Below are positions 405 through 6,558 of a stretch of DNA of 9,028 bases, piece after piece (the stretch's first letter is position 1; the number at the start of each line of letters is the position of its first letter). Below the pieces are notes generated by a model. That model had not been told where the DNA came from and did no database searches. It saw only the letters and a program-made list of their open reading frames with translations. Origin of the DNA: Candidatus Tayloriibacteriota bacterium (lineage in GTDB: Bacteria > Patescibacteriota > Minisyncoccia > Phycocordibacterales > PALSA-1337); NCBI GenBank assembly GCA_023269245.1, contig JAHFMB010000002.1:1-9028 (forward strand). The letters are read 5' to 3'. The translations under genes and the position numbers were made by a program.

Positions 405-1448
405 AGTCTTTATAGTAAAGTTATTTCTCTTAAGAATCTATTCAGCGCATGGGCCGAATTCCGCCAAAACAAAAATAATAAAATCGACGTCCAAGAGTTT
501 AAATTCAATCTCGAGGATAATATATTTGAGTTACATAAACGGCTAAAGGATCGTGTCTGGACCCCTGACGAATACATCGCCTTTTACATAAAAGATCCCA
601 AACTGCGGCATATACACAAGGCAACGGTAAGGGATCGTGTTTTCAATCAGGCGCTGTTCAGGGTATTGTATCAAATTTTTGACCCAATCTTTATTTTTGA
701 TTCATACTCGTGTCGAAATGGTAAAGGAGTTCACCAAGGATCTAAGAGGCTAGGAGAGTTTGCAAAGAAGTTGAGCGGTAATTACCACAAGCCAATCTAC
801 GCTCTTAAATGTGATGTGCGAAAGTTTTTTGACAACATCTCACATGAAAAAATGTTTTCTTTAATAAAAAGAAGAGTCTCAGATCCTGAAGTGTTACGTC
901 TGATAGATTTAATTATAAAGAGTTTTGAAACAAAGCCGGGAGCCGGGCTACCTCTTGGAAATGTGACTAGCCAACTATTTGCAAATGTTTACTTAAATGA
1001 ATTAGATCAATTTGTTAAGCATCAAATAAAGGCAAAGTATTATTTACGTTACTGCGATGATTTTATAATTTTACATCCAGACAAAAAGTTTCTCGTCGAA
1101 TCCGTAAGTAAGATAGAAGTCTTTTTGAAAGAGGAGTTGGACTTAATCCTTCATCCAAATAAAATAATCATCCGCCACTTGAGTGAGGGGATTGATTTCC
1201 TAGGGTACGTAACGCTCCCTCATTTCAAAGTTGTTAGGAATAGCACTAAAAAGAGAGTGTTGAGAAAAATAAAAGTCGCGCAGGATCGATTAAGTAAGAA
1301 GATGATATCTGAGGAAACTTTCGATCATATTATTAACTCCTACATGGGAATATTAAAACACTGCAAAGGGTTCAAAGTAGAGCAGGAAATATTAAAAATT
1401 GTTCCTCAATTTAAGCTTAAAAATAAGGATATTTTGGAAGCAAAATGA
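369..1448 (+). CDS. DGR-type reverse transcriptase
   Basis: This RNA-directed DNA polymerase of 359 residues begins at the ATG at 369. Numbered from there: the N-terminal RT0-like region SLKNLFSAW lies at 20-28, RDRVFNQALFRVL at 88-100, KCDVRKFFDNI with catalytic Asp149 at 147-157, the SQ motif LPLGNVTSQ at 194-202, and the YCDD box with Asp230 and Asp231 at 228-231. GIDFLGY lies at 274-280 and is followed by a basic helical thumb. The LGNxTSQ form, in place of QGxxxSP of group II introns, is typical of DGR enzymes, as is an Avd partner. No maturase or HNH domain follows. Upstream in-frame ATGs back to 201 lie inside the antisense avd gene and add no conserved sequence, so they were not used. 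The ATG at 369 still overlaps avd by 36 nt. The gene is AT-rich, has no clear ribosome binding site, and no TR/VR pair was found beside it. Confidence 0.92.
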   Translation: MNNRQISEGSGHSLYSKVISLKNLFSAWAEFRQNKNNKIDVQEFKFNLEDNIFELHKRLKDRVWTPDEYIAFYIKDPKLRHIHKATVRDRVFNQALFRVLYQIFDPIFIFDSYSCRNGKGVHQGSKRLGEFAKKLSGNYHKPIYALKCDVRKFFDNISHEKMFSLIKRRVSDPEVLRLIDLIIKSFETKPGAGLPLGNVTSQLFANVYLNELDQFVKHQIKAKYYLRYCDDFIILHPDKKFLVESVSKIEVFLKEELDLILHPNKIIIRHLSEGIDFLGYVTLPHFKVVRNSTKKRVLRKIKVAQDRLSKKMISEETFDHIINSYMGILKHCKGFKVEQEILKIVPQFKLKNKDILEAK

Positions 1449-1484
1449 TACTATCTCATTAGAATTCCACACTTAGCCCTATTC

Positions 1485-1513
1485 TTGACAGAATGTGTTA
1501 AGTGTGATAGGCT
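1485..1513 (+). promoter_or_regulatory. Sigma70-like promoter of the ATPase operon with flanking inverted repeat
   Basis: TTGACA at 1485-1490 is a perfect -35 box, followed by a 17-nt spacer and a weak -10 TAGGCT at 1508-1513. Transcription should start near 1520, giving a leader of about 105 nt. Inverted arms CACACTTA (1469-1476) and TAAGTGTG (1499-1506) bracket the -35 and touch the -10, as an operator would. A near-complementary pair AGCCCTAT / ATAGGCT lies beside them. The promoter call rests on the -35 and spacing; the regulator is unknown. Confidence 0.5.
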
Positions 1514-1538
1514 TATAGCCGGTACGGATAGGTCATTG

Positions 1539-1553
1539 AAATGTGAGAGTTCT
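1539..1553 (+). repeat. 15-nt segment complementary to the operon's 3' end
   Basis: AAATGTGAGAGTTCT in the leader is the perfect reverse complement of 4340-4354, immediately at the operon's final stop codon. The two copies form an inverted pair bracketing the complete operon. Its last two bases overlap the 5' arm of the leader hairpin. Confidence 0.6.
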
Positions 1554-1575
1554 GCCATCCTATGTGGGATGGTAG
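1552..1575 (+). promoter_or_regulatory. Leader hairpin in the 5' UTR of the ATPase operon
   Basis: CTGCCATCC (1552-1560) pairs with GGATGGTAG (1567-1575) over 9 bp with one G-U pair and a 6-nt loop. It lies between the predicted transcription start and the AAAGGAG site (1611-1617) of the first gene. No U-tract follows, so it is not a terminator. It could stabilise the mRNA or bind a protein. Confidence 0.4.
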
Positions 1576-1624
1576 CTAAACTGCAATATAGTCAAACGTC
1601 AACAAGTCAGAAAGGAGACATCCC

Positions 1625-1885
1625 ATGCCTGAAGTACAGACCAGGCGGCATAACGGTTATGTCGTCGGTCAAAACAACAGCGGAAGTAAGGGTCAACCTT
1701 ACTGGACGGTCAGGGTCAAAGATCCTGAAAGTCCGCACAACGGCAAGAAGTTCCCCGTGGTTTCAACCCGCGAAGGAATCACTCTTGCGCAAGGTCTGAA
1801 CGTGAACTTTGTCATCGGCTCTGTCGATGGCGAGAACGGTCAGAAAGTAATGAAAGCGGTGGACGTGTGTCCCTCGCAATCGTAG
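1625..1885 (+). CDS. Small beta-rich protein, first gene of the ATPase operon (unknown function)
   Basis: This 86-residue protein belongs to no family I recognise. AAAGGAG at 1611-1617, 7 nt from the ATG, fixes the start. The composition suggests a single beta-barrel: short strands such as GYVVGQN, YWTVRVKD, KKFPVVST and LNVNFVIGSV alternate with Gly/Asn/Pro turns. There is no signal peptide, membrane segment or metal motif. An OB-like or Sm-like fold is a guess from this pattern. It is cotranscribed with the Mpa/ARC-like ATPase gene, 39 nt upstream of it, and shares the GC-rich composition and SD style of that gene. A role as an adaptor or nucleic-acid-binding partner of the ATPase is possible but not shown. 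Its stop codon overlaps the first bases of a repeated leader motif (1884-1897). Confidence 0.8.
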   Translation: MPEVQTRRHNGYVVGQNNSGSKGQPYWTVRVKDPESPHNGKKFPVVSTREGITLAQGLNVNFVIGSVDGENGQKVMKAVDVCPSQS

Positions 1886-1897
1886 TCAACCAGTCAA
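1884..1897 (+). repeat. Leader motif AGTCAACCAGTCAA, copy upstream of the ATPase gene
   Basis: This is the second exact copy of the 14-nt motif, starting within the stop codon of the preceding gene and lying 28 nt before the ATPase start. Internally it is a GTCAA(C) repeat, and a further CGTCAA occurs just before the Shine-Dalgarno sequence. Confidence 0.6.
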
Positions 1898-1924
1898 CCC
1901 AAAACGTCAAAAGGAGAACAAGTC

Positions 1925-3610
1925 ATGTCTAGTAATACTGTTGAGCGTCACGAGCTCGAATCACTGCAGGAAGCGCTTCGGTCGGCCAAAGAGGCCATCA
2001 TGAAGCAAGGAGAGATCATCGGCCGCCTCACCTCGCGTCCCTTCGCTTATGCGACGGTCGTGCAGGTCGGCAGCGTTGCCCCTCACACCCTTCTCATGAA
2101 GAAGGGCGCCCAAGTCCGGATTCGTCCGGACAGCCAGTACGCCGATACCGACGAAATCGGTACCGTCGTCAACCCGAAGCACGATCACGGTTGGGTCAAG
2201 GTCAAGTTCCCGACATACGGGAGCGAAGCCTACCGAATCGGTCTGCCCGATGTTGAAGATGGAGCGTGCGACCTCGAGTTGGCAGATGGAACCAGCGGCA
2301 AATTCGCCGTCATTTCCGTCGAAAACCAACTCCTGGAAGTCAACGCTCCGGAGATCAGCATTCAGCCTGGCGACACCGTCAAGCTGAACGCCGAGACGAT
2401 GCAAATCGTCGGAGTGGCAGCAGTCAGTGCGGCGGGTGATGTGGCAGTCGTTCAGAACGTGCACGACAAGACGTTCTGCGAAGTGAGCTATCAAGGCTCG
2501 GTGCGTGTCGTTTTCAACGGCAAGCATGGTGACAAAGTGGAAAAGGGCGACCGGGTCATTCTGGACGCAACTGCCATCGTCGTCATTCGCAACCTGGGCA
2601 AGGAAGACAAGCGGTTCGCCTTCACCGGCAAAACCAATGTCACCTGGGACAGCATCGGCGGACTCGCTGATGCCAAGCGTGAGCTCATCGAAGCAGTGGA
2701 ACTGCCCCATCAACGGGCGGACCTCTACAGCTTCTACGGGAAGAAACCGCCGAAGGGCATTCTCCTGTACGGCCCTCCGGGCTGCGGCAAGACTCTGCTC
2801 GCCAAGGCAACCGCCACGGCTCTGCAGAAAATCTACGGCACGCAGAACGCTGACTCTGGTTATCTGTACGTCAAAGGTCCCGAAATTCTCGACAAGTATG
2901 TCGGGGAAACCGAGGCTGCGATTCGTCGGCTCTTCGAGCAGGCGAGACAGCACCAGAAAGCGCACGGTTCACCGGCAGTCATCTTCTTGGATGAAGCCGA
3001 CGCCGTCCTGGGGAAACGAGGTTCGGGCATCAGCTCGGACATCGAGAGGACCATCGTTCCGATGTTCCTCGCCGAGATGGACGGACTTCACGAGTCCGGC
3101 GCCCTGGTGATTCTCGCAACGAATCGCCCGGACACTCTCGACTCCGCCGTTGTTCGCGACGGTCGCATCGATCGCAAGATCAAGGTGACCCGACCGACGA
3201 TGGAAAGCTCCATCGACATCTTCCAAATCCACTTGGCGAATGTGCCGCTTAACAACGGCTACACAACCAGGCAGATCGCGGAAAAGGCGAGCCATGAGCT
3301 CTTCGGTGCAAACCGAGTGCTCTACAAGGTCGAACGCAAAGGCGCAGACCCGCTCGACTTCAAGTTGTGCAACCTCCTGAACGGTGCAATGATCGCCGGT
3401 ATCGTCGACCAGGCCACTTCGGCCGCAATGCGACGGGACCTCAGCGAAAAGAAGCCCCAAGGGATGAAGCTGGATGATGTGGTGACGGCGGTGGACACTG
3501 TCTTCCGTCAGAACCTGGACACCGATCACTCGGACGACCTCGCGATGTTCGTGGAAGATTTCCGTGACCAAGTCACGGCGGTCCGACGCGTTCACAGCCT
3601 GGCCAACTAA
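1925..3610 (+). CDS. Proteasome-associated AAA+ ATPase, Mpa/ARC type
   Basis: This 561-residue ATPase has the architecture of the bacterial proteasomal ATPase Mpa/ARC. A short coiled coil (about 6-36) is followed by tandem OB-like domains (about 38-165 and 168-226). The AAA+ domain contains WDSIGGL (241-247), Walker A GPPGCGKT (283-290), pore loop Y325-V326-G327 and Walker B FLDEAD (354-359). GSGISSD (366-372) and sensor-1 Asn400 follow, then RDGRIDRK with candidate arginine fingers. FKLCNLLNGAMIAGIVDQA (479-497) is the Mpa-like C-terminal helical segment. Family members form hexamers that unfold substrates, recognising Pup through the coiled coil. AAGGAG at 1911-1916 sets the start. Oddities: the coiled coil is shorter than in Mpa, RPGR is changed to RDGR, and the C-terminus ends in HSLAN with no QYL/HbYX-type docking motif. 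No 20S subunits are nearby. The family call is strong; partner and substrate are unknown. Confidence 0.92.
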   Translation: MSSNTVERHELESLQEALRSAKEAIMKQGEIIGRLTSRPFAYATVVQVGSVAPHTLLMKKGAQVRIRPDSQYADTDEIGTVVNPKHDHGWVKVKFPTYGSEAYRIGLPDVEDGACDLELADGTSGKFAVISVENQLLEVNAPEISIQPGDTVKLNAETMQIVGVAAVSAAGDVAVVQNVHDKTFCEVSYQGSVRVVFNGKHGDKVEKGDRVILDATAIVVIRNLGKEDKRFAFTGKTNVTWDSIGGLADAKRELIEAVELPHQRADLYSFYGKKPPKGILLYGPPGCGKTLLAKATATALQKIYGTQNADSGYLYVKGPEILDKYVGETEAAIRRLFEQARQHQKAHGSPAVIFLDEADAVLGKRGSGISSDIERTIVPMFLAEMDGLHESGALVILATNRPDTLDSAVVRDGRIDRKIKVTRPTMESSIDIFQIHLANVPLNNGYTTRQIAEKASHELFGANRVLYKVERKGADPLDFKLCNLLNGAMIAGIVDQATSAAMRRDLSEKKPQGMKLDDVVTAVDTVFRQNLDTDHSDDLAMFVEDFRDQVTAVRRVHSLAN

Positions 3611-3622
3611 GGAGACACTGCC

Positions 3623-3892
3623 ATGATATTCGATAACATCAAACGCAGGCGCAAGCCTGGCAGTGAGAATGGCAACAGTCCGCTGACGCTGCAAGGCGTG
3701 GAAGTGGAAGCCCCTCCTGTCCAGGAAATCATCGGCGAGATCAATAGTGCTCTCGGCGACAACAATGCTGGGTCTAACGATTCCAGCGCAGGTGAAGTGG
3801 ATACCGACAATGTCCTCGATGCGATTGACCGAGCCTTGGAGAAATCCGAGCAACTCGTGCAAAAGCTCCCGAGCGACAGGTGCCGGTGCTAA
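3623..3892 (+). CDS. Acidic 89-residue protein with a Pup-like C-terminal helix
   Basis: The start is supported by AAGGAG at 3609-3614, which overlaps the ATPase stop codon, so the genes are translationally close. The protein has a basic N-terminus (IKRRRKPGS), a low-complexity middle rich in Gly, Asn, Ser, Asp and Glu (about 44-63), and a helix VLDAIDRALEKSEQLVQKL (64-82). That helix resembles the LLDEIDDVLEENAEDFV segment of Pup, the part that docks on the Mpa coiled coil. Like Pup, the protein appears largely disordered, acidic and lacking hydrophobic core outside the helix. Unlike Pup or UBact, it ends in DRCRC, not Gly-Gly-Gln/Glu, and neither alternative reading frame restores such an end. 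It could be a non-conjugated substrate, an adaptor or a regulator of the neighbouring ATPase. The similarity was judged by eye. Confidence 0.8.
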   Translation: MIFDNIKRRRKPGSENGNSPLTLQGVEVEAPPVQEIIGEINSALGDNNAGSNDSSAGEVDTDNVLDAIDRALEKSEQLVQKLPSDRCRC

Positions 3893-3927
3893 CCTGAAAC
3901 CCTTAACCGACTGAAAGGAGTTTGACT

Positions 3928-4341
3928 ATGGACGTACAAGCGTTCCTGACTGCAGTGATCCTCGCGATCGCTGTGGCGGCAGTCTCGATGACCATTGGCC
4001 GGGCCAAGGTCTCGGAGGGTTTCAGGAGTTGGGCGGACAACAAATCCGCCTGGCTCGGGAAGCTCGTCAACTGCCCGTATTGCATCAGTCACTGGATTGC
4101 GTTCGTTGCAGTCGCGTGGTACAGACCGAGGGTGATAAGCTCAAGCTTCATCATCTTCGACTGGATCGTCTCGCTCTTCCTGATTGTCGCCCTGGCCTCA
4201 TTGGCCTCCGGCGTCATCAAGATGGCATCGTTTCCCGATAAGGGGAATGGCAGCCAACCAGAGCGTGAGCCGCGACGGCCCGAACGTCCTCCGGTGGATG
4301 AAGAACGACCCTTGCGCAACCGCGCTCGGGCCGAGGTGTAG
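3928..4341 (+). CDS. DUF1360-like membrane protein with a CPYC motif
   Basis: This 137-residue protein ends the operon. GGAG at 3917-3920 points to the ATG at 3928, 7 nt away; a TTG two codons upstream is too close to the SD. Three hydrophobic segments lie at about 4-23, 53-66 and 76-97. The loop before the second contains KLVNCPYCISHWIAF, with Cys49 and Cys52, the signature layout of DUF1360 membrane proteins, whose function is not known to me. The last 35 residues form a Pro/Arg/Glu-rich, likely cytosolic tail. Cotranscription with the Mpa/ARC-like ATPase suggests a membrane anchor, a membrane substrate or a redox or metal site linked to that system; this is inference. The stop codon sits in the arm of an inverted repeat just ahead of the terminator. 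Confidence 0.85.
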   Translation: MDVQAFLTAVILAIAVAAVSMTIGRAKVSEGFRSWADNKSAWLGKLVNCPYCISHWIAFVAVAWYRPRVISSSFIIFDWIVSLFLIVALASLASGVIKMASFPDKGNGSQPEREPRRPERPPVDEERPLRNRARAEV

Positions 4342-4374
4342 AACTCTCACATTTGGTCTTTCGTAAGTTCTACA
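4337..4374 (+). repeat. Inverted repeat spanning the operon's last stop codon
   Basis: TGTAGAACT (4337-4345) and AGTTCTACA (4366-4374) are perfect 9-bp complements around a 20-nt loop. The left arm contains the TAG stop of the DUF1360-like gene. The segment 4340-4354 is also the exact reverse complement of 1539-1553 in the 5' leader of the same transcript (15 of 15). The mRNA could therefore form either a local stem or a 5'-3' pairing. Confidence 0.6.
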
Positions 4375-4381
4375 AACAAAT

Positions 4382-4416
4382 GGGCCTGTCACTTCGGTGG
4401 CAGGCCCTATTTTTTT
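4382..4416 (+). terminator. Strong intrinsic terminator of the ATPase operon
   Basis: GGGCCTGTCAC (4382-4392) and GTGGCAGGCCC (4397-4407) form an 11-bp GC-rich stem with one G-U pair, capped by a TTCG tetraloop and followed by TATTTTTTT. It lies 40 nt after the last stop codon of the operon. Confidence 0.95.
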
Positions 4417-4438
4417 ATTAGCCGCTTCAGCGCAGAAC

Positions 4439-4458
4439 ACCCAGGGCATGCCCTGGGT
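4439..4458. repeat. Perfect 20-nt palindrome
   Basis: ACCCAGGGCATGCCCTGGGT is self-complementary across all 20 bases. No T-run follows, so it is not a normal terminator. It is the first of three hairpin-forming sequences between two convergent transcription units. Confidence 0.85.
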
Positions 4459-4484
4459 TGAATGAATATTTTGCTCCAGTAGAT

Positions 4485-4498
4485 CTCACGTCAGTGAG
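4485..4498. repeat. Short hairpin in the palindrome cluster
   Basis: CTCAC and GTGAG form a 5-bp stem around the loop GTCA. It is preceded closely by GTAG (4479-4482), a tetranucleotide that often flanks REP hairpins; that resemblance is weak. Confidence 0.4.
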
Positions 4499-4517
4499 TA
4501 AGTGTTGATCCTAAGGA

Positions 4518-4535
4518 CCACGGGTTTACCCGTGG
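4518..4535. repeat. REP-like hairpin CCACGGGT/ACCCGTGG
   Basis: CCACGGGT and ACCCGTGG form an 8-bp stem separated by TT. It lies about 60 nt from the 20-nt palindrome and shares its GC-rich, loop-poor form. Such paired hairpins occur in REP/REPIN elements and in ends of IS200/IS605 elements. No transposase is present here. Confidence 0.6.
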
Positions 4536-4556
4536 GTATCTATTTAATTTTTATAT

Positions 4557-4593
4557 AAAAAACAGATCCCTGGAGCGCAAGGCTACAGGGATC
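4557..4593 (-). terminator. Intrinsic terminator of the minus-strand CxxC gene
   Basis: Read on the minus strand, GATCCCTG (4593-4586) pairs with CAGGGATC (4572-4565) over 8 bp, with a 3-bp inner stem in the 13-nt loop. It is followed by TG and a T-run (4562-4557). It lies just past the stop of the gene at 4622-4948. Confidence 0.8.
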
Positions 4594-4621
4594 AGTGATA
4601 GGTCCGCTTTCGCTGACCAGG

Positions 4622-4948
4622 TTAGTTCAAATGGATCTTGTCCATCGCTGTGCGACGACTCACGGGATCGTTTGGAACGATCTCGGAGAGAGCGCTGGCG
4701 AGGATTCCAAGAAGTGCCATCGGAAGCATCGACGAGGATGAGAGTGGGGAATCGTGAATTTGTTTTCTCACGACTCCAACTTCCACATCGAGGAGCTTTC
4801 CATCCTTGCGTGCCTGCTCGAGTTGAGCAAGCGCCTCGGATTCGGCGGCAACTTCTTTTCCTTCTGAACCGTCTGAGAAGACGATATGGCCGTGATGGCC
4901 ACAGTTCTCGCAGACTTTGAAATGAGCAGGCAGAATGATCTTCTTCAT
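4622..4948 (-). CDS. Small CxxC/His-cluster protein (unknown function)
   Basis: This 108-residue protein has its ATG at 4948, supported by AAAGGAG (4962-4956) 7 nt upstream. The N-terminus carries Cys13-x-x-Cys16 followed by His18, His19 and His21, which could bind one zinc ion or other metal. A charged, Ala/Glu-rich helical stretch follows at 31-50. A hydrophobic stretch (about 74-91, MLPMALLGILASALSEIV) could be a weak membrane helix or a buried helix. I recognise no family. The gene is convergent with the ATPase operon and has its own promoter and terminator. Its leader carries the same AGTCAACCAGTCAA motif as the leader of the ATPase gene, and codon and GC usage are similar. This hints that the two units arrived together or share regulation. 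Confidence 0.75.
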   Translation of the reverse strand: MKKIILPAHFKVCENCGHHGHIVFSDGSEGKEVAAESEALAQLEQARKDGKLLDVEVGVVRKQIHDSPLSSSSMLPMALLGILASALSEIVPNDPVSRRTAMDKIHLN

Positions 4949-4960
4949 CGGTAATCTCCT

Positions 4961-4974
4961 TTGACTGGTTGACT
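4961..4974 (-). repeat. Leader motif AGTCAACCAGTCAA, copy upstream of the CxxC gene
   Basis: The minus-strand sequence AGTCAACCAGTCAA runs directly into the AAAGGAG site. An identical 14-nt copy lies at 1884-1897 on the plus strand ahead of the ATPase gene. A looser version (GTCAAACGTCAACAAGTCAG) precedes the first operon gene at 1591-1610. Confidence 0.6.
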
Positions 4975-5004
4975 GTTTGACGGATGTTTTGGAACTCAGA
5001 CCAT

Positions 5005-5033
5005 ATCATACCATACACTATTGTATTGGTCAA
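5005..5033 (-). promoter_or_regulatory. Promoter of the minus-strand CxxC gene
   Basis: On the minus strand, TTGACC (5033-5028) and TATGAT (5010-5005) are separated by exactly 17 nt, a good sigma70-type promoter. The leader is about 50 nt. A dyad ATACA-CTAT-TGTAT (5013-5026) fills the spacer and could be an operator. It shares TACACTA with the inverted repeat at 6713-6734. Confidence 0.7.
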
Positions 5034-5119
5034 ATGATGTTTGAGCCTCCCTGCAAAGCTTAAAATTTAACAAAGAAAAAGTAAATGAGTAATAGAGTCT
5101 CCACTTTGTACTCAAAAAT

Positions 5120-5556: not shown

Positions 5557-6558
5557 ATGCAAACAGTCCAACCGACTCGTCATGGGACCTACGTGGTTAC
5601 CTATGACGTGGCAAGTCGTCTTCAGGCATTCCGCCCGAAGACTCTCACAATTCCACGCCCGGACGATCAGTTGTTCGAGCGCTTCCACATGGGCCTGTTT
5701 CAAAAGATACAGCAGGCCCTACCTGGTATCAATATTGATACCATCGAAATGAGCGAGCTACGGCGCAAAATTTGGGAGCAAGTTGATGCCCGGATCACTG
5801 ACCTCGGTCAGCAAGCGGTGCTCAGCACATGCCTAGAAATTGCCGACTCGAATCCGAAAAGCGAAGGTCTCCTGCTCAACATCAACCGGCTCTTCAATGC
5901 AGACGGACAGTTGATCGGGCATGGCCCTCGTCCTGGCTTCAAGCCCCTAGCCGAGCAATTCGATGACCTGGCAAAGAAGATCGCTGGACGTTCCGTGGTC
6001 TTAATCGAAGACGGAGCATTCAGTGGTGGCACAATGCGTTATGTGCTTCATGAACTCAATAGTCGTGGCCTCACAGTTACGGCTATGGTGATCGGGTTCT
6101 GCTGCACTAGGGCAGAGTTTGTCCTCGACCAGATCTTCAAAGGCGAGCTTGTCATTGTGCATCCGATTGAGAACCTTCTCGACTGGATTCCCGATCACGA
6201 TCTCATTCCGTTCATTCCGAACTGTGGCCGAGTCCTTGGCGAACCTGTGGACGGAGCCTTTATGCCGGTCCGGAGCTCGGATGGCTTCAGCTGCGCTTTT
6301 CCTTACATCTTGCCGTTCGGCAAAATCGAGGAATGGGCCAGCTTGCCACTTGAAGGTGCTGAAGATTTATCCAGGCTATGCCTTGATATCAGCATCGAGA
6401 TCTTCGGCCGTGTGGGGCCTAAAATGACGATAGGGGAGCTTCTGGCAGCGAATCCCAGGGTCTCAATGCCTATCGAAATTCACGCTCCGGAAGCCAGGCT
6501 TGCCTTGGATACGGAGATCCTCGGTCTTTTGGAAAAAACTAGAAAAAGGCTCGGATAG
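5557..6558 (+). CDS. Phosphoribosyltransferase-like protein (unknown substrate)
   Basis: This 333-residue soluble protein has an AAAAGGAGG site (5543-5551) 5 nt before its ATG. Residues 146-179 match the central strand and PRPP loop of type I phosphoribosyltransferases: SVVLIEDGAFSGGTM, with Glu151-Asp152 and the SGGT turn, then a helix and the next strand TVTAMVIGF. Downstream, DWIPDHDLIPFIPNCGRVLG (209-228) could form the hood region that selects the substrate. The N-terminal 140 residues are mostly helical with no domain I recognise, and the C-terminal 75 are also unassigned. The likely chemistry is transfer or removal of a ribose-5-phosphate group. No pathway gene sits nearby to name the base. 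The gene stands alone, GC-richer than its flanks, and ends at a strong terminator. The PRTase call is moderately confident; the role is unknown. Confidence 0.75.
   Translation: MQTVQPTRHGTYVVTYDVASRLQAFRPKTLTIPRPDDQLFERFHMGLFQKIQQALPGINIDTIEMSELRRKIWEQVDARITDLGQQAVLSTCLEIADSNPKSEGLLLNINRLFNADGQLIGHGPRPGFKPLAEQFDDLAKKIAGRSVVLIEDGAFSGGTMRYVLHELNSRGLTVTAMVIGFCCTRAEFVLDQIFKGELVIVHPIENLLDWIPDHDLIPFIPNCGRVLGEPVDGAFMPVRSSDGFSCAFPYILPFGKIEEWASLPLEGAEDLSRLCLDISIEIFGRVGPKMTIGELLAANPRVSMPIEIHAPEARLALDTEILGLLEKTRKRLG

Follow-up and report, generated by a model that had tools for sequence, protein, structure and literature searches.

Pup is known as a protein tag that depends on enzymes, and Mpa as its proteasomal motor. 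In mycobacteria, the Pup helix lies on the coiled coils of Mpa, with its disordered N-terminus directed toward the pore (excerpts of PMC8755798). Approximately half of the actinobacteria have lost the 20S proteasome genes (excerpts of PMC6466877), and a missing 20S is therefore not novel by itself. Here we describe a four-gene cassette from a Candidatus Tayloriibacteriota bacterium (GenBank assembly GCA_023269245.1) that encodes an Mpa/ARC-like ATPase, a small Pup-like protein with a cysteine tail, a DUF1360 membrane protein, and a further small protein, p86. The stretch of DNA analyzed, termed the window herein, is one entire contig of 9028 bp (JAHFMB010000002.1), and the genome comprises 813,792 bp in 108 contigs and is 83.4% complete. 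Because the small protein is Pup-like, the cassette has the appearance of a relative of the Pup/Mpa pair that has been rewired to work without a ligase.

An Mpa/ARC-like ATPase without a docking tail

The ATPase gene and its features, with positions in the window, are:

1925..3610, plus strand: Mpa/ARC-like AAA+ unfoldase of 561 amino acids with the C-terminus SLAN, assigned from TIGR03689 and Foldseek matches
1931..2032, plus strand: predicted N-terminal helix, residues 3-36, assigned by DSSP on the model, with the conserved pattern L..AL..AK.KL.EQ
2894..2908, plus strand: pore loop 1, KYVGE, residues 324-328, assigned by motif position
3596..3607, plus strand: C-terminal SLAN, without the GxYx (GQYL) 20S-docking motif by tail comparison

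The protein matched TIGR03689 (pup_AAA) over residues 12-538 with 323.8 bits (E value, 1.9e-96), without reaching the curated cut-off of 504.75 bits; the next-best families were CDC48 (207 bits) and PAN (205 bits). Walker A, pore loop, Walker B, sensor, and arginine-finger-type motifs were present, with starts at residues 283 (Walker A), 324 (KYVGE), 354 (Walker B, FLDEAD), 369 (second pore loop, ISSD), 398 (ATNR), and 411 (RDGRIDRK). KYVGE corresponds to K340-E344 of Mycobacterium tuberculosis Mpa (excerpts of PMC8755798). In an AlphaFold2 model (predicted local distance difference test score [pLDDT], 81; predicted template modeling score, 0.57), helix 3-36 is followed by strands through residues 40-225 and then by the AAA+ module. 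The helix stands where Mpa has its Pup-binding coiled coil. All of the top 30 Foldseek matches to this model were Mpa structures, aligned over 455-567 columns, and the best of them was 7px9_B (E value, 2.8e-35; TM score, 0.54 by query length). None of the 47 rows in the ATPase family set had a penultimate tyrosine versus 62 of 79 cellular loci, a count in which the L172 row is a run-on open reading frame (ORF); several cellular loci, e.g., the Corynebacterium loci L030, L068, and L082, also lack this residue. The initial annotation of the window, made from its letters and translated ORFs, had described a full Mpa/ARC-like ATPase with no 20S-docking tail, and both descriptions were borne out.

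Identity to the ATPases of 80 cellular loci (genome contigs) was 32-40% over the best segment. In a quick, midpoint-rooted tree without bootstrap, cellular ARC and related rows formed a separate 20-row group (Shimodaira-Hasegawa-like approximate likelihood ratio test support, 99), and the window ATPase fell outside this canonical group, together with those of two genomes of the same phylum (G366 and G142) and viral rows. Kerfeldbacteria were among its named relatives. The best-scoring cellular ATPase of the scan (40%) came from a Nanoarchaeota contig (L006) and branches beside canonical ARC.

Because the window is an entire 9028-bp contig, the lack of neighboring genes in it says little alone. 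Across the genome, at the completeness given above, there were 0 matches to PF00227 (proteasome) and 0 to PF03136 (Pup ligase/Dop), and a hidden proteasome or ligase was rejected as an explanation. PF00227 was likewise found in 0 of the 46 records behind the ATPase loci, and PF03136 was not found in 45 of these 46, the exception being a canonical locus in MT835496.1. This record (L172), labeled 'Bacteriophage sp.', contains a canonical ATPase-Pup-ligase locus with the Pup end VQKGGQ and two PF03136 proteins, and is likely a bacterial piece under a phage label. Four of 360 genomes of the phylum encoded PF03136 (G311, G265, G327, and G031; loci L293-L296) and one had a weak, below-cut-off match to TIGR03690; the genome of the window was not among them.

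A Pup-like protein with a cysteine tail

The second gene of interest and its features are:

3623..3892, plus strand: Pup-like small protein of 89 amino acids with the C-terminus CRC, directly downstream of the ATPase gene
3797..3862, plus strand: Pup-like helix, residues 59-80, VDTDNVLDAIDRALEKSEQLVQ, assigned by hhalign to canonical Pups
3881..3889, plus strand: Cys-Arg-Cys end, residues 87-89, located where canonical Pup has GGQ/GGE

None of the usual partner genes of Mpa/ARC had been recognized in the initial annotation, yet this ORF resembles Pup. It matched TIGR03687 (Pup) with 15.9 bits (E value, 0.0099; cut-off, 41.45 bits), and weak matches to this family were obtained for 4 of 7 close sequences, the window's included. 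Aligned by hhalign to 22 canonical Pups, which were taken from cellular ARC loci, the 7 close sequences gave a P value of 3.7e-5 and a set of 31 diverse small proteins one of 2.3e-5 over 23 columns. For either set, 0 of 200 column shuffles reached the score observed (best shuffle for the diverse set, 12.5 versus 27.9).

The last 28 residues align without gaps to canonical Pups, with CRC at the position of GGQ (DNVLDAIDRALEKSEQLVQKLPSDRCRC versus DSLLDEIDEVLEDNAEEFVRNYIQKGGQ of L007). All 7 close sequences, including that of the window, end in C-x-C, the middle residue being R or G. The N-terminus is basic and, judged by appearance and without computation, looks disordered. A hidden Markov model (HMM) built from 15 small-protein sequences gave 15 non-seed matches at an E value of <= 1, 14 of which adjoin an ATPase gene (one of these, L098, is nearly a copy of a seed). 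The same HMM found the canonical Pup of L172 weakly at the same place (E value, 3.6). Both in the window and in the related locus of G366 (L166), the small cysteine protein is encoded directly downstream of the ATPase. These sequence comparisons suggest, but do not prove, homology to Pup, and the protein is termed Pup-like rather than Pup.

In two viral contigs, second proteins with a like helix and other, longer C-terminal parts were observed (L091:12057-12467 and L118:3949-4377), an arrangement that would suit a docking helix used as a portable module. An extra small cysteine-rich protein is encoded beside the ATPase in L104, L117, L227, and L258; in three of these contigs it carries a motif resembling GCxCxxCxxxxCxGH.

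The DUF1360 membrane protein

The third gene and its motif are:

3928..4341, plus strand: DUF1360 small membrane protein (PF07098) of 137 amino acids, assigned from PF07098 and phrog_781
4072..4092, plus strand: CPYCISH motif with C49, C52, and H55, the supposed partner of the cysteine tail

The match to PF07098 (25.2 bits) lies above the Pfam cut-off of 21, phrog_781 was matched with an E value of 2.3e-8, and the protein model is all-helical (pLDDT, 86). The family has no assigned function, and among the open-access papers searched, DUF1360 was mentioned in one. C49, C52, and H55 were invariant across 21 aligned DUF1360 rows, themselves chosen by the pattern C-x-x-C-x-x-H-[WY]. A cassette-specific histidine acting as an additional metal ligand was considered and rejected, because contigs L246, L260, and L282 carry the cassette with the histidine replaced; the motif is also present in 34 contigs without the ATPase nearby, which came from a scan that searched for the motif itself.

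Recurrence of the cassette

The ATPase was found at an E value of <= 1e-60 in 3 of 379 genomes of the phylum, namely, that of the window, G366, and G142. The gene order recurs in full in G366, which encodes a p86 homologue (52.6% identical, directly upstream of the ATPase at L166:5839-6069), the ATPase, a small protein ending in NCGCLGENDYGGF, and DUF1360. Beside the ATPase of G142, neither DUF1360 nor a small cysteine protein was found.

The core of the cassette (ATPase, small cysteine-pair protein, and DUF1360) was also recognized, by inspection, in 30 of the 57 viral contigs with this ATPase branch; half of these 30 exceed 100,000 bases in length. These 57 contigs, viral by IMG/VR classing, comprise 40 from a first IMG/VR ATPase-alignment scan (L086-L125), 16 from a second scan, and L219 from the DUF1360 scan. 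L126-L165 were left out of the first scan; they match mostly over the AAA part and were taken untested as other AAA families, and L126 is cut at the contig start. Left out of the second scan were contigs already seen, L275 and L276 (with GQYL tails), L281 (the contig of L126), L285, L292, and lower rows. Within the 57, L114 ends at the ATPase, and L093 and L098 resemble copies. Of 44 records, 23 matched phrog_2, which we take to be the large terminase, yet so did 11 of 14 control genomes.

DUF1360 adjoins the ATPase in 30 of the 57 contigs, and in 30/30 of these a gene between the two encodes a small protein with two closely spaced cysteines (CC, CxC, or CxxC), in a sorting made by eye with DUF1360 status known and with L227 doubtful. 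By the same inspection, 12 of the 27 contigs without DUF1360 encode a protein with a longer cysteine knuckle (e.g., ICICGNPGCGIGP) and 15, including L114, have neither type. Under a fixed rule, short cysteine tails were detected in 20/30 contigs with DUF1360 versus 0/27 without it (Fisher P = 2.6e-8), a rule that misses 10/30 and in which one of the 20 (L100) depends on a chance ORF. Cysteine knuckles under this rule showed the reverse distribution (1/30 with DUF1360 versus 8/27 without). The quick tree implies at least 10 changes of DUF1360.

Viral contigs found via DUF1360 (n = 50) included 16 with the ATPase. The small-protein HMM matched 13 of these 16 versus 0 of the 34 without the ATPase, 7 of which have <1.5 kb upstream of DUF1360. 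ORFs that passed a two-cysteine filter were present in 7 of the 34 ATPase-free contigs as well, and the HMM matched none of them.

Proposed mechanism

The cassette retains the ATPase motor with its N-terminal helix and, in the small protein, a Pup-like helix preceded by a basic N-terminus; a ligase, a depupylase, and a protease were not found. The only conserved novelty is the cysteine tail, the form of which correlates with the presence of DUF1360. We are evenly divided on, and put forward as our preferred and simplest reading, a mechanism in which a ligase-free Pup-like adaptor docks on the coiled coils of the ATPase and grips a partner with its cysteine tail, here likely DUF1360, with the unfoldase working at the membrane. 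The ATPase, as an Mpa/ARC-like unfoldase, would then likely operate with neither a proteasome nor a Pup ligase. By analogy with Mpa and Pup, helix 59-80 of the small protein would pair with helix 3-36 of the ATPase, and the basic, disordered-looking N-terminus would thread into the ATPase pore. A metal ion bound by both, or a disulfide, may connect the CxC tail with the CPxC of DUF1360, a contact for which no ligase would be needed. We prefer DUF1360 as a membrane anchor of the unfoldase over DUF1360 as its cargo. The initial annotation had proposed a proteasome-independent unfoldase with small partners and a membrane link through the DUF1360-like protein; this fits the data, but the Pup-likeness of the small protein, probably the central point, had been overlooked.

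A broader version, which we regard as tentative and rather unlikely, is that large phages have spread a counterpart of pupylation that needs no ligase. Here the GG-Glu end would be replaced by a self-attaching cysteine tail (by metal or disulfide to the CPxC of a membrane protein) that delivers a target to, or anchors, a proteasome-free Mpa-type unfoldase, and interchangeable CxC or knuckle tails would set the target. The adaptor reading predicts that the cysteine tail alone selects the partner.

Several observations weigh against the adaptor reading. The TIGR03687 match is far below the cut-off and, among the 31 diverse small proteins, was obtained for the window's own alone. The hhalign match is short (23 columns), and reversed profiles score 18.2 versus 28.8 for the close set and 22.7 versus 27.9 for the diverse set; part of the score therefore stems from a roughly palindromic, acidic, amphipathic helix, and the likeness may, at the level of sequence, be convergence of amphipathic acidic helices. 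No significant difference in coiled-coil strength was seen between ATPases accompanied by a small protein and those lacking one (P = 0.063). The CxC of L219, L277, and L283 lies within the protein instead of at its end. Most contigs behind the HMM figure of 13/16 also gave seeds, and the 34 ATPase-free contigs gave none. With a correction for the tree, the comparison of tail type and DUF1360 came down to 3 supported independent pairs, too few to be informative. Finally, DUF1360 with its CxxC was found in 34/50 contigs without the ATPase nearby, and its cysteines thus serve something else too.

Operon, contig, and origin of the cassette

The remaining features of the operon are:

1625..1885, plus strand: p86, a small protein of 86 amino acids and first gene of the cassette, an ORF with an AGGAG site
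4382..4407, plus strand: intrinsic terminator at the operon end, an 11-pair stem with 8 G-C pairs followed by a T run

All four genes start with ATG behind an AGGAG-type site. For p86, no Pfam, NCBIfam, or PHROG match was obtained at the limits applied, and its function is unassigned. Of the operon outlined in the initial annotation, the three small ORFs and the terminator were recovered; the promoter was not, a plus-strand scan of 1400-5100 having found no sigma-70-like promoter.

Upstream of the cassette are Avd and reverse transcriptase genes, and downstream are a TrpR-like gene and the genes for a phosphoribosyltransferase and a tyrosine integrase. The bAvd-family four-helix protein (minus strand) and the reverse transcriptase (plus strand) lie back to back at 48-1448 with overlapping starts. 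A long repeat serving as a template/variable pair was looked for beside them and none was found, so that a diversity-generating element was not demonstrated. The tyrosine integrase (PF00589; 6934-8109) is AT-richer than the cassette, as would fit a contig that is mobile or a mosaic. The G+C content of the cassette is 0.573, versus 0.37-0.43 for the Avd/reverse transcriptase, TrpR-like, and integrase parts. Two downstream genes, each with an AGGAG-type site, are nearer to the cassette in G+C content than is the rest of the contig: the phosphoribosyltransferase-like gene (5557-6558; 0.53) and a gene for a 108-amino-acid cysteine-containing protein (4622-4948; 0.52). Both possibly share an origin with the cassette.

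In G366 the cassette adjoins genes resembling purD and maf, named by eye from sequence without a family search and of a usual chromosomal kind by appearance, and the neighbors in the window are quite unlike these. From the different neighbors and the distinct G+C content of the cassette, the four-gene block seems to move as a unit.

This mosaic raises the question of whether the contig is a mis-binned viral or plasmid piece, with the cassette belonging to that element and not to the host. Such an explanation concerns location and is compatible with the adaptor mechanism; we take it as a serious possibility, on balance leaning against it. The G+C profile (0.37/0.57/0.43), the integrase and reverse transcriptase on the same contig, the predominance of viral contigs among the cassette relatives, and the presence of the ATPase in just 3/379 genomes of the phylum are all in its favor. 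They are countered by the mean G+C content of the contig (0.468), which fits that of three other contigs of the same genome (0.474-0.499), and by the occurrence of the four-gene block beside the purD-like and maf-like genes in G366.

Alternative explanations

The small protein could instead be an adaptor toward targets of the host or the virus, with the tail as its target-binding end. Short CxC and knuckle tails would then recruit different clients, and DUF1360 would be no more than a co-travelling membrane gene with a role in superinfection exclusion or host takeover. Pairs of such proteins that differ in their ends are encoded in L096, L104, L105, L106, and L117, the second proteins of L091 and L118 combine a like helix with another C-terminal part, and most cassette relatives are in contigs classed as viral by IMG/VR, all of which would suit this explanation. 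We nevertheless consider it unlikely, given that tail type segregates with DUF1360 under the fixed rule (short tails, 20/30 versus 0/27; knuckles, 1/30 versus 8/27).

The co-occurrence data that speak for the adaptor reading also speak for DUF1360 as cargo. In that case, the cysteine-tailed protein would mark DUF1360 or its complex, in a ligase-free tagging akin to pupylation, and the ATPase would extract or remodel it in the membrane; the N-terminus of bound Pup does enter the Mpa pore and is translocated (excerpts of PMC8755798). A dedicated machine that clears its own operon partner would, however, be odd, and DUF1360 lacks the ATPase nearby in 34/50 contigs, which leaves this explanation decidedly unlikely in our judgment.

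It is very improbable that the ATPase is an ordinary diverged Mpa/ARC acting as a proteasome-free remodeler, as may hold for actinobacteria that lost the 20S core, beside unrelated metal-binding small proteins whose similarity to Pup is chance: the Pup similarity is weak and 20S loss with ARC retained is known (excerpts of PMC6466877 and PMC8755798), but 20S-less actinobacteria retain the pupylation enzymes (excerpts of PMC6466877) whereas PF03136 was not found in this 83.4% complete genome, the quick tree places the ATPase apart from canonical ARC, and ATPase and small protein keep steady company.

Comparison with known systems

In the open-access literature, we found no description of viral or Patescibacteria Mpa-type ATPases with cysteine-tailed Pup-like proteins. 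Excerpts of a jumbo-phage survey (PMC7824862) yielded no mention of Pup or Mpa, with 'proteasom' occurring in its references alone. If the adaptor reading is true, a Pup-Mpa pair can act as a plain adaptor-unfoldase, without ligase, depupylase, protease, or docking tail. The widespread, mostly viral ATPase branch would then supply phages with an unfolding machine that is compact and can be re-targeted, and the cassette would provide a functional lead for DUF1360.

The ATPase shares with Mpa/ARC (TIGR03689) the N-terminal helix, the OB region, the AAA+ motor, and the pore loops K-aromatic-V-G-E and (I/V)SS. Unlike Mpa/ARC, it scores below the TIGR03689 cut-off, lies outside the ARC group, and has no GQYL tail, and its genome has no 20S, PafA, or Dop match. 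The small protein resembles Pup (TIGR03687) in its size, its encoding near the ATPase, its helix of the form D-x-(L/V)-L-D-x-I-D-x-x-L-E, and the same distance from this helix to the C-terminus. It differs from Pup in having CRC instead of GGQ/GGE, a basic N-terminus, an extra APPVQEIIGEINSAL stretch, and a family score below the cut-off, and no ligase was found for it. As in the 20S-less actinobacteria (e.g., Corynebacterium glutamicum), an Mpa-type ATPase is present without a 20S partner (excerpts of PMC8755798 and PMC6466877). Those bacteria, in contrast, retain the pupylation enzymes (excerpts of PMC6466877), whereas PF03136 was not found in the genome of the window, and its cassette includes DUF1360. 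This membrane protein agrees with its family (PF07098, phrog_781) in scoring above the Pfam cut-off and in carrying the CPxCxSHW motif as in the viral set.

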